Below, piece by piece: positions 1,320 to 38,111 of a stretch of 64,000 bases of DNA. Origin of the DNA: an uncultured Bacteroidia bacterium (lineage in GTDB: Bacteria; Bacteroidota; Bacteroidia; Bacteroidales; UBA932); assembly GCA_902797035.1 (NCBI GenBank), contig CADBRH010000035.1, positions 83,810 to 147,809 of the forward strand, read 5' to 3'. The position numbers were made by a program, and so were the translations under genes. Within the stretch, counting starts at the first letter, position 1, and the number at the start of each line of letters is the position of its first letter. The notes beneath the pieces are model-generated. The model was given only the letters and a program-made list of their open reading frames with translations. It had not been told where the DNA came from and did not search any database.

Positions 1320-3515
1320 ATGGACTACGGGTTTTTCAGGGTTGCGGCCGCTGTCCCTCGTGTCAAGGTCGCCGATGTCGAGGCCAACAAGACCGCGATA
1401 ATAACCATAATCGACAAGATTGAGGCGGAGAGGGCCTCGCTCGCCGTCTTCCCCGAGCTTTCGGTCACAGGATACACCTGCCTCGACCTGTTCTCACAGG
1501 ATATCCTCTTGAAAAAGGCGGAGGAGGCCGTGAAGATGATTGCCTGGCACACCAGGGGGAAACATGCCGCGGTGGTTGTCGGCGCCCCTGTCCGCTGCCG
1601 CGGGAGGCTGTACAACTGCGCCATCGTGATACGTAACGGGAGCGTCAAAGGGATAGTCCCCAAGATCTACCTGCCCACTTACGCCGAGTTCGACGAGGGG
1701 CGCTGGTTCGCGTCGGGATCAGACTTCCTCTCCCCCACCAATTTCGCTTCGGGCTCCTTTGTGGACGACGGCCGGGATTATTATCGCGACGGCTTCGACT
1801 CGGTCATCAAATACGCCGGAGGGCGTTGCAACATATCCCCTAACCTCCTTTTCACAATAGGGACAGCAACCTTCGGGATCGAGATCTGCGAGGACTTCTG
1901 GGCACCCATCCCCCCGTCCTCCTTCCTCGCCCCTTCGGGAGCGCAGATAATCGTCAACATCTCCGCGTCCAATGAGGTGGTGACCAAACACAAGCAGCGT
2001 GAGGAGCTGATATCCAACCAGTCGGGGCGCACCGTCTCCGGCTATGTCTATTGCTCGGCGGGCTACGGCGAGTCCACGATGGACACCGTTTACGGCGGTT
2101 CCTCCATGATTTGCGAGAACGGCCGTCTCCTCGCCGAGAACGAGCGTTTCCAGATGGATGACTCGGTTATCTACGCCGACATCGACGTCGGCCGCCTTGA
2201 CATCCTCCGCCAGAAGAAGAACTCATTCCGTGGCATGGCCCCGGACGGGACATCCGCCTGTGAATATTCGAATCTATATTCAAACTACGACCTCGGCGCT
2301 CCAGCCCCCACCGACTTCGAGGAAAGGCTCTACCGCCATGTCGAGAGGCACCCCTTCCTTCCGGAAGGCGACCCTGCCCAGGTGGCGGCGGCCTCGAAGG
2401 AGATTCTTTACATACAGTCGACCGGCCTGGCGGCGAGGATGGAGCATATAGGCTGCCAAAGGGCCGTGATCGGCATCTCAGGTGGTCTGGACAGCACCCT
2501 CGCGCTTTTAGTCACGGCTATGGCCTTCGACAGGCTCAAACTTGACAGGAAAGGTATCATCGGAGTGACCATGCCGGGACTCGGGACCACCAAACGCACC
2601 AAATCCAACGCAGTGGACCTTATGGAGGCCCTCGGGGTGACCTCGAGGGAGATCTCCGTCGTGCCGGCCGTGGAACAGCACTTCAAGGACATCGGCCACG
2701 ACCCTACGGTCATGGACTCCACCTACGAGAACGCCCAGGCCAGGGAAAGGACACAGATATTGATGGACATGGCGAACCAGGAGAACGGTCTCGTGATCGG
2801 CACAGGTGACCTCTCGGAGCTTGCCCTCGGCTGGTGCACCTACAACGGGGACCATATGTCCATGTACGGGGTCAACGCCTCAGTGCCAAAGACTCTGATC
2901 AGGCATCTGGTCCGCTGGGCCGCGGAGAACGTGTTCACCGCTCCGGCTCCCAGGGATGGAAGGAAAGCCTCTGAGATACTCATCGACGTGACCGAGACTC
3001 CCATTAGCCCTGAGTTGGTCCCAGCCAACGAGAAAGGTGAGATCAATCAGAAGACGGAGGATCTGATCGGCCCGTACGAGTTGCATGACTTCTTCATCTA
3101 TAATTTCATGCGTTACGGGTATTCCCCGTCAAAGATTTTCTTCCTGGCTTGTCACGCGTTCGGCAATGAGGGGACGGCGGCAAGTACTGCCCCGGACTCT
3201 CGACGCTTCGCGCCCTATCCGGGTAAATGTTCGTCCGGGGCAGTCTTGCCGCAGCCGCATAACGCGCCCTATCCGGGTAAATGTTCGTCCGGGGCAGTTT
3301 TGCCGCCGTCGCGTCCAGGCGAGACTTATGACAAGGGGACGATACTTAAGTGGCTGAAGGTTTTCTACAAGAGGTTCTTCTCCCAGCAGTTCAAACGTTC
3401 CTGTATGCCCGACGGCCCGAAAATCAGTGTCGTGAGTTTCTCTCCAAGAGGGGACTTCCGCATGCCCTCCGACGCCAAGGTCAAGTTATGGATGGATGAG
3501 TTGGAGCGACTATAG
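1320..3515 (+). CDS. nadE: glutamine-dependent NAD(+) synthetase with in-frame insertion
   Basis: A 731-residue fusion of a nitrilase-type glutaminase and an NAD synthetase, making NAD+ from deamido-NAD, ATP and glutamine. The glutaminase triad is visible as Glu46 ('FPELSVTGY'), Lys115 ('PKIYLPTYAEF') and Cys190 ('EICEDFW'). The ammonia-using synthetase half has the ATP pyrophosphatase loop 'GISGGLDS' at 385-392 and the 'GTGDLSELALGW' segment. The C-terminus ends with the expected 'SFSPRGDFRMPSDAK'. Between 'ACHAFGNEG' (about residue 618) and 'ETYDKGTILKWLKVF' (about 670) lie roughly 50 extra residues, rich in Pro, Gly and Ser, encoded by a repeated palindromic DNA block (annotated separately). 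Family members normally run straight from one flank to the other. The frame stays open, so the enzyme is probably still made with a surface loop. The 3' end overlaps the convergent DUF4252 gene by 6 bases. Confidence 0.95.
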   Translation: MDYGFFRVAAAVPRVKVADVEANKTAIITIIDKIEAERASLAVFPELSVTGYTCLDLFSQDILLKKAEEAVKMIAWHTRGKHAAVVVGAPVRCRGRLYNCAIVIRNGSVKGIVPKIYLPTYAEFDEGRWFASGSDFLSPTNFASGSFVDDGRDYYRDGFDSVIKYAGGRCNISPNLLFTIGTATFGIEICEDFWAPIPPSSFLAPSGAQIIVNISASNEVVTKHKQREELISNQSGRTVSGYVYCSAGYGESTMDTVYGGSSMICENGRLLAENERFQMDDSVIYADIDVGRLDILRQKKNSFRGMAPDGTSACEYSNLYSNYDLGAPAPTDFEERLYRHVERHPFLPEGDPAQVAAASKEILYIQSTGLAARMEHIGCQRAVIGISGGLDSTLALLVTAMAFDRLKLDRKGIIGVTMPGLGTTKRTKSNAVDLMEALGVTSREISVVPAVEQHFKDIGHDPTVMDSTYENAQARERTQILMDMANQENGLVIGTGDLSELALGWCTYNGDHMSMYGVNASVPKTLIRHLVRWAAENVFTAPAPRDGRKASEILIDVTETPISPELVPANEKGEINQKTEDLIGPYELHDFFIYNFMRYGYSPSKIFFLACHAFGNEGTAASTAPDSRRFAPYPGKCSSGAVLPQPHNAPYPGKCSSGAVLPPSRPGETYDKGTILKWLKVFYKRFFSQQFKRSCMPDGPKISVVSFSPRGDFRMPSDAKVKLWMDELERL
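3175..3309. repeat. in-frame palindromic repeat block inside nadE
   Basis: The block contains two direct copies of a 44-base unit (3209-3252 and 3263-3306) that differ at one base and start 54 bases apart. The left edge (3175-3196, CGGCGGCAAGTACTGCCCCG and on) is the reverse complement, apart from a one-base indel and one substitution, of the right edge (about 3289-3309), and the end of copy 1 also matches it. The element is therefore bounded by inverted repeats and could fold as a long hairpin in DNA or mRNA. Both copies translate in the same frame to 'APYPGKCSSGAVLP'. No other copy was noticed in the window. The arrangement recalls the palindromic elements that insert in frame into Rickettsia genes; that comparison is an analogy, not a homology claim. 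Confidence 0.85.
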
Positions 3516-4058
3516 CTGTTTACTCAGCCGGCGGACCACTCGTTCGACATCGCTTGCCAAGACTGTACCTTTGATGCAGACCACCGACTGGCCGTACATT
3601 ATGATGATAAGGTCAGAAACATGTTCACCATCATCGGATACTTGACCGAACGTCTCATCGAACACTTGCCCACCTGTCTTATTGCTAAGGATTAGATTAT
3701 CCTTGATAATAGACTTATTTACAGCTGTTTCTATTTCTTCACGAAGGCCCGGTTCAGCTTCGCTGTACTCGAGTATGTAAACTGTGTTCACCCGCCTGAA
3801 AGCCTTTGCTACCTTTCTCGTCCACTCATTTCCTGCCCTCCCTACCGTCTTGCCCATGGTCATCGCCAGTTTCCCCAACTTCATCAGAGACACGTTTCCG
3901 CGTCCTTCATATTGTTCCATCAAGGAGACAATGCTATCGAAGCATTCCTGATGACTTGAACTGACGACAATAGCGATGTCCGCTTCCTGGCCAGCCACGG
4001 GGATGACCGACACAAACAAAAGCGCGAGCAGCGGCGGCAATGACTTCCAGTTAACCAT
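3510..4058 (-). CDS. DUF4252 family secreted protein
   Basis: A 182-residue protein. The ATG at 4058 gives a clean signal peptide ('MVNWKSLPPLLALLFVSVIPVAGQ'-like), whereas a longer frame to 4106 would add 16 polar residues overlapping the previous gene. The body has the DUF4252 pattern: an early 'LMEQYEGRGNVSLMKLGKLAM' segment, a central 'VNTVYILEYSE' strand and a C-terminal 'DLIIIMYGQSVVCIKGTVLASDVERVV' motif. It is the last gene of a five-gene minus-strand operon with an ECF sigma factor and probable anti-sigma factor. DUF4252 proteins are common in Bacteroidetes and have no proven function. A periplasmic or outer-surface stress role is inferred from the sigma-factor context only. Confidence 0.8.
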   Translation of the reverse strand: MVNWKSLPPLLALLFVSVIPVAGQEADIAIVVSSSHQECFDSIVSLMEQYEGRGNVSLMKLGKLAMTMGKTVGRAGNEWTRKVAKAFRRVNTVYILEYSEAEPGLREEIETAVNKSIIKDNLILSNKTGGQVFDETFGQVSDDGEHVSDLIIIMYGQSVVCIKGTVLASDVERVVRRLSKQL

Positions 4059-37975: not shown

Positions 37976-38111
37976 CCTTTGTCCCTAGAGGGAGCCTCCA
38001 TCCCCCAACCGCCGCTTCGCGGCCCCACCGCTCGCTTCGCTCCGGTCCCCCCTCTTAACGTGCCGAGGGTGGCAGTGGTTGGGGGACGGAGCCCCTCCAG
38101 GAGACAAAAGG
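37976..38111. repeat. 136-bp palindromic element with imperfect terminal inverted repeats
   Basis: The left end (from 37976, CCTTTGTCCCTAGAGGGAGC and on to CCCCCAACC at 38010) is a near reverse complement of the right end (GGTTGGGGGA at 38078 to GACAAAAGG at 38111), about 35 bases with a few mismatches and indels. The centre (38011-38077) is GC-rich with small internal repeats ('CGCTTCGC' twice). The whole block would fold into a long hairpin. It has no coding capacity and sits between the SDR gene and the P-type ATPase gene, ending 19 bases before the ATPase ATG. It resembles a MITE or REP-like repeat; no second copy is present in the window. Confidence 0.75.

Follow-up and report, generated by a model that had tools for sequence, protein, structure and literature searches.

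An in-frame insert in a Bacteroidales nadE gene as a probable site of a dispersed palindrome with a nearly constant loop and a site-specific stem

The nadE gene of the window (the whole stretch of 64,000 nucleotides analysed here, from an uncultured Bacteroidia bacterium) carries an in-frame insert that is probably one site of a lineage-specific, dispersed and non-autonomous mobile palindrome, termed family A. Template switching is the most likely process by which its stem would be remodelled and turned round at the site. A family A unit is composed of one arm on either side of CTCCCTGCGCTTCGCGCCCTRTCCGGGTAAATGGTCG, which occurs in small variants, and it combines a conserved loop of ~36 nt with a self-complementary stem of ~20 bp that differs by site. 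A sequence-only reading of the window had suggested a Bacteroidales equivalent of the mobile or amplifying palindromes of Rickettsia, and this suggestion is supported by 35 distinct copies extracted from the host genome and by element-free sites in relatives. Judging from open frames and homology, the hairpin appears to be read as extra protein.

NadE contains the Pfam domains NAD_synthase and CN_hydrolase, and its best match in the PDB, 3dla, aligns in two separate blocks, one with residues 3-616 and the other with residues 667-730. The insert was delimited in an alignment of 13 NadE proteins, that of the window and 12 chosen relatives (L111 among them), as the sequence-only reading had proposed; 10 of the 12 relatives have nothing at the insert position, and L111, from the RUG790 MAG, has one APYPGKCSPGAVL unit. 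The earlier estimate of about 50 residues added to the enzyme is borne out by the ~53 counted here, and its placement in NadE stands, although the residue range 618-670 shifts to nearer 616-668. An unrelated insert of ~22 residues occupies the same position in the NadE of L178, and therefore this loop of the protein tolerates insertions. In an AlphaFold2 model built from the 13-row alignment (mean pLDDT 73.5), residues 618-666, between helices 603-614 and 672-688, have pLDDT values below 50, as do other stretches of the model, and the ~53 added residues are predicted to be disordered.

Table 1. Features of the nadE gene and its insert (positions in the window)
Feature	Position	Strand	Basis or remark
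nadE, the gene that carries the insert (glutamine-dependent NAD+ synthetase of 731 aa)	1320..3515	+	ORF, Pfam, PDB 3dla
In-frame insert, ~53 codons (residues ~616-668)	3165..3323	+	13-protein NadE alignment
Left stem arm, site-specific sequence	3173..3197	+	complementary to both right arms (3233-3252, 3287-3310)
Conserved loop, copy 1 (core 3210-3229)	3198..3232	+	core common to extracted host-genome copies
Right stem arm, first copy	3233..3252	+	inside the 54-nt tandem unit
Loop copy 2, left end truncated (core 3264-3283)	3263..3286	+	
Right stem arm, second copy	3287..3310	+	left arm's partner in minimum-energy folds

The insert consists of one unit and a 54-nt tandem repeat (Table 1). Its direct repeat (3209-3258 and 3263-3312) covers 50 nt at 94% identity and includes the two 44-base copies with one mismatch that had been noticed earlier, while the inverted repeats reported to bound the block are the left arm and two right arms, which share 12-nt perfect cores. 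The frame is open throughout, and the repeat unit is translated twice as APYPGKCSSGAVLP, again in agreement with the sequence-only reading. The folds of the insert have z values of -3.9 as DNA and -4.8 as RNA, and none of 200 shuffles was equally stable. Tandem duplication, which had been taken as a sign of copying at the site, recurs in the host, where gcvPB has the unit twice and an epimerase gene three times. Such growth of family A adds a loop, a right arm and a spacer, with a spacing of 54 in nadE, 60 in gcvPB and twice 60 in the epimerase gene, all of them multiples of three. Spacings of 63, 67, 68 and 73 occur at four places not known as genes (L004, L005, L016 and L069), and no Pfam match was obtained for L005 and L016.

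The unit is dispersed in the host genome (2.27 Mb, 83.9% complete). The nadE region gave 26 BLAST matches at E<=0.001, its own place included, and the 16-nt loop core gave 41 matches with up to two mismatches, compared to 3 for a reversed control. The expectation that the repeat would be found elsewhere therefore holds for the unit, but not for the ends CGGCGGCAAG...CTTGCCGCCG that had been named as search terms; these, like the arms, are specific to the nadE site, and the other copies have the loop surrounding GCGCCCTATCCGGGTAAATG in common with it. When GTDB genomes were scanned for GCGCCCTRTCCGGGTAAATG, at least 109 stretches matched, and those listed all come from ten MAGs of the Bacteroidales or Bacteroidia, some of which are named after rumen, omasum or abomasum samples. 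From the 109 listed loci 110 copies were extracted, and each of the ten genomes holds 2-46 copies at up to two mismatches, with 0 for the control. In a sample of 393 genomes of the host's order, only the host has the 21-nt core at up to one mismatch, and the remaining 392 lack it. In the sample drawn from the host's family, 18 of 98 other genomes have a two-mismatch match, and the six of these sequences that were inspected by eye show no flanking arms. With regard to a viral origin, IMG/VR contained 0 exact matches. The sequence-only reading had named two outcomes that would count against it, namely the same segment in NadE of distant Bacteroidales with no repeats elsewhere, and the lack of both another copy and an empty site; neither was encountered, in view of the core's absence from the other sampled genomes of the order, the BLAST matches and the empty NadE relatives.

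Together, the 35 host copies and the 110 copies from all 109 listed relative loci make up a set of 145. An open frame of 150 codons or more spans 125 of them, and in 113 the frame extends for 30 codons or more to either side; for random places drawn from these loci, the corresponding counts are 684 and 590 of 725. Copies are thus found in ORFs about as often as random places, which gives little sign of gene avoidance. Besides nadE, 15 of 18 host ORFs tested belong to a Pfam family, and the host genes with a copy include GcvPB, an ATP_bind_3 protein, a radical SAM protein with Radical_SAM_C, a sugar epimerase, BacA/UppP and DsbD, and further TldD/PmbA, WbqC, HAD, MnmA, MetG and a second radical SAM protein. 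Gene names that go further than the Pfam assignments are putative, such as TilS-like for the ATP_bind_3 protein and HemW-like for the second radical SAM protein. Several of the element-bearing genes are essential elsewhere. The element-bearing stretch is extra or unaligned with respect to solved structures in MetG, MnmA, GcvPB and UppP. In L025, MnmA is longer than its solved counterparts by ~160 residues (query 231-392), among which there is a family A unit.

Reading phases were counted in a subset of 119 copies (host copies and those of 80 of the 109 relative loci). Ninety have 30 codons on each side, and they occur in both orientations and in five of the six phases (30, 22, 15, 13 and 10 copies). 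None is in the sixth phase, which holds TAA, but such counts from spanning ORFs are subject to a bias, as any phase interrupted by a stop escapes them. Likewise, all ten copies in reverse phase 0 have G where A would give TAG, partly because an open frame was required.

The arms of family A match each other within most copies. In the 145 copies the median local score of arm complementarity is 15 for a copy's own arm, whereas arms taken from different copies reach a median of 6, and the own-arm score exceeds the 99th percentile of these swaps in 115 copies (94 in the earlier 119-copy subset). Three units that were folded display an outer stem followed by two mini-hairpins (CGC-TTC-GCG and CCC-TATCC-GGG) and then unpaired bases. 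To compare sites, 131 copies were grouped by flank homology into 71 sites. They were taken from the host loci, from L291-L350 and from 80 of the 109 relative loci, the copies of L144-L172 being left out, and the counts of orthology, orientation and compensation given below rest on this set. A stem score of at least 11 was reached by 53 of the 71 site representatives, in which the stem has a median length of 20 bp with 93 mismatches in 1181 pairs; since the 18 representatives scoring below 11 are left out of the stem statistics, the paired fractions describe copies chosen for their stem.

Conservation is concentrated in the loop. Beside the core, 14 of the 21 loop columns listed hold 1.17-1.82 bits, values that overstate the conservation in relatives because their loci were found by the exact loop pattern; the 20-nt core is itself the search pattern, and its conservation is therefore no independent result. 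The left-stem columns hold only 0-0.66 bits (one 1.22), yet they are paired in 66-98% of copies up to 35 nt left of the core, and at 36-40 nt, where information drops to at most 0.06 bits, 23-58% of copies are still paired. The right-stem columns hold up to 0.88 bits, and columns outside the stem at most 0.17 bits, so that there is no conserved terminal tag.

Comparison of sister genomes by joined-flank queries revealed that the presence of the element varies between close relatives (L119 versus L321, L096 versus L327, L071 versus L334, and L135-3975 versus L328). L096 is filled and L327 empty with a flank identity of 97/94%, and L071 and L342 are filled in frame after a CxxxCxxC motif while L334 is empty. 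No clear target duplication was seen by eye in the filled/empty pairs. The orientation also varies: the hairpin is reversed between L068 and L348 (flanks 98/93%) and between L135-3650 and L345 (94/98%). Orthologous pairs, which share members and are not independent, have the same orientation in 53 cases and the inverted one in 46; the counts are 14 and 13 at flanks of at least 80%, and 4 and 2 at flanks of at least 90%. The left arms are more alike than the 95th percentile of random arms in only 29 of the 53 same-orientation and 18 of the 46 inverted pairs. In some orthologous pairs the two copies may have been inserted independently at a hot spot, because sister species hold other repeats (family B or a GTCATTCTGAGCG-type repeat) at several sites and because the likeness of the left arms is limited. 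The element at L291 has decayed and retains a single arm, as judged by eye.

The source of the arms was also considered. The idea that the inner arm is an inverted duplication of the native flank was rejected, as the arm was not seen by eye in the empty member of four pairs (L119/L321, L071/L334, L096/L327 and L135-3975/L328), although parts of the outer stem may possibly have such an origin (L103/L252). Insertion only into pre-existing palindromes is not general either; there is one clear case, in which L079 is filled and the corresponding site of L076 reads AAACGACA-A-TGTCGTTT without the element.

Changes in the two arms are coordinated. In 46 same-orientation pairs there are 81 paired double changes, compared to a mean of 17.6 and a maximum of 29 in 500 shuffles in which the right-arm changes were permuted, next to 25 unpaired double changes, 137 one-sided changes and 606 unchanged positions. 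The 35 inverted pairs have 58 paired double changes versus 13.6 in the shuffles, with 40 unpaired double and 120 one-sided changes. In the 25 pairs with flanks of at least 80%, 19 paired double changes versus 5.1 are accompanied by 69 one-sided ones, and this excess of one-sided changes at close sites indicates that stem repair is not immediate. Paired stem change is thus above chance, but it is not instant.

A model in three steps could account for these features. On arrival, a unit would reach a new site by some enzyme or process, and it seems to carry the inner stem with it because inner arms were not seen in the empty sites compared. For upkeep, template switching during replication would most likely copy one arm from the other and could also flip the hairpin. 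An insertion would then be tolerated, and persist, where its length keeps the frame and the peptide sits in a tolerant loop. According to passages of PMC8794818, template switching can create or repair stems, give rise to multi-base compensation and turn a loop in place; the same source describes loop inversions as very rare, unlike the nearly random orientation found here, and the evidence for stem upkeep as circumstantial. A far-reaching form of the model, in which the element is a genetic parasite defined by sequence only in its loop and template switching rewrites the stem and flips the hairpin in place wherever it has landed, is a tentative proposal that we regard as possible rather than likely. 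If true, the stem would be regenerated as a structure and not inherited as a sequence, and genes of basic enzymes would carry invertible in-frame peptide cassettes.

The compensation could also have arisen by selection on the stem, either because the folded strand is needed for mobilisation or because it has a role as RNA or DNA in the host, with changes being selected singly. We consider this explanation somewhat improbable, but it shares part of the evidence: compensation exceeds the shuffles, one-sided changes are common, as under stepwise compensation, and stem mismatches on the loop strand lean to A.C over G.T (54 versus 31 in the 119 copies; ~31 versus 15 in site representatives). Seen from the complementary strand, the A.C mismatches of the loop strand become G.T wobbles, and folding of that strand would lead one to expect them, although the asymmetry is weak. 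The hairpin, however, occupies genes that are unrelated to one another, and it does so in either orientation and five reading phases, which makes a host RNA role per gene unlikely, and an Rfam search of window positions 2900-3600 returned no family at the gathering score (best 16.2 bits versus 36). Moreover, stepwise change does not predict inversion in place; template switching fits compensation and inversion together, whereas selection on the folded strand fits the former but not the latter. As for mobilisation, family A might be a REP-type element that a Y1 (HUH) transposase of its genome moves, in the manner of the TnpA-REP subclass 2.6 of Bacteroidetes. In that subclass, as parts of PMC6006769 describe, atypical hairpins lie on the flanks of the genes and further copies of them elsewhere. 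PF01797 has two matches in the host genome (one above the cut-off) and 1-6 in each of the ten repeat-rich MAGs (28 in total), two host Y1 genes have palindromic repeats on their two sides, with 96% identity over 112 nt in one case, and this latter repeat holds CCATTTAC, which is also found within the complement of many family A loops. Nevertheless, such an origin appears unlikely: the 16-nt loop core occurs at up to two mismatches in none of 30 Y1 loci from 11 genomes (~1.5 kb on each side, shorter in 6 of the 30) and at three mismatches in one of them, compared to 2 of 30 control loci. Several Y1 genes also have different repeats of their own nearby, and REPs are mostly intergenic according to sections of PMC3733652, while family A copies are not.

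Two further readings have very little probability. The related unit at the same position in the RUG790 NadE would fit a functional loop specific to NadE that diverged by local duplication, but this is refuted by the dispersed copies, which place the same loop in unrelated genes, and the empty site in most NadE relatives and the predicted disorder of the segment also speak against it. An artefact of assembly or binning comes to mind since the relatives are MAGs, as are all named genomes with the loop among the matches listed; it is hardly credible, given that the loop was recovered in ten separately named MAGs and in the host genome, that frames are mostly open, and that the arms are site-specific, unlike the product of misassembling one repeat. 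A mobile palindrome, most likely maintained by template switching, is our preferred reading.

Family A is accompanied by other repeats. The loop of family B, GGCCGTACTCAGCCGCAGCG...ATGGACGCGGCC, has 28 matches in the examined loci and 10 in the host genome (control 1). Its median arm score is 13.5 versus 7 for swapped arms, and only 2 of the 28 exceed the 99th percentile of swapped pairs, a weaker test because the inner arm of family B is itself partly conserved. In 12 of the 28 matches, e.g. in L074, L104 and L118, the loop itself contains another short palindrome, CCCTGAGC...GTCGAAGGG or a sequence close to it, and palindromes are therefore nested. A family D palindromic repeat, CCACTGCCACCCTCGGCAC, is situated in the window at ~37998-38090, with a minus-strand motif at 38060, between ORFs labelled by eye as short-chain dehydrogenase-like and P-type ATPase-like; its motif is also present in L077 and in a ksgA-like gene of L062. 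In L062 (136-1131 and 1261-2430), this RrnaAD (KsgA-like) gene, which has a long in-frame repetitive stretch, adjoins a Y1 transposase gene, and the latter is flanked by the two direct copies of the 112-nt palindromic repeat mentioned above. Tandem REP-like arrays (CATGTGG..., GGTAGAGGTC...) were seen by eye beside Y1 transposase genes in L270, L284 and L289.

Family A occurs in Bacteroidales relatives inside ORFs, including genes of translation and cofactor synthesis. The combination of a near-constant loop with a changing but paired stem separates selection on sequence from upkeep of structure, which are usually mixed, and the many sites provide natural replicates for telling selection on the stem from a copying mechanism. 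As family B is of similar build, palindromes of this kind could represent a general source of new disordered segments in bacterial proteins.

A search of the openly licensed PMC literature gave no recognised description of the family A element, which can be compared to several known systems. In the palindromic elements (RPEs) of Rickettsia, the sequence is conserved over the whole palindrome, stem included; in family A the stem is site-specific, only the loop is conserved, and either orientation may occur at a site. In-frame palindromes are best known from Rickettsia, and family A, although it belongs to another bacterial group, resembles the RPEs as described in parts of PMC10969869 in its lifestyle, being a short palindrome dispersed in frame in unrelated genes, with several families per genome. 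REP and REPIN elements with TnpA-REP (RAYT), of the GTAG/CGTC kind, are likewise small hairpins with complementary stem changes, and some lie in ORFs; the relevant sections of PMC3733652 also mention that CGTC repeats occur in Bacteroidetes and that REPs are found within genes of other taxa. REPs have stems of 5-13 bp and a terminal tag, whereas family A has longer stems, a conserved loop and no GTAG/CGTC tag, and its core at up to two mismatches does not flank the Y1 genes in the 30 loci scanned, even though each of the 11 loop-bearing genomes examined has Y1 transposase matches. Because of this lack of stem conservation, the stem length and missing tag, and the Y1 neighbourhood, family A is classed as neither RPE nor REP. 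With respect to MITEs, its arms are site-specific and the filled/empty pairs show no clear target duplication by eye. Inverted repeats inside protein genes are also known from the mitochondria of Nematomorpha, for which template switching is one possible mechanism of concerted arms (PMC6649704, abstract); there the arms encode conserved protein regions, and the abstract describes no dispersed family with a constant loop. Finally, template-switch mutations, as treated in passages of PMC8794818, are a process inferred in RNA genes and not a mobile family, and this process is proposed here for the upkeep of the family A stem only.
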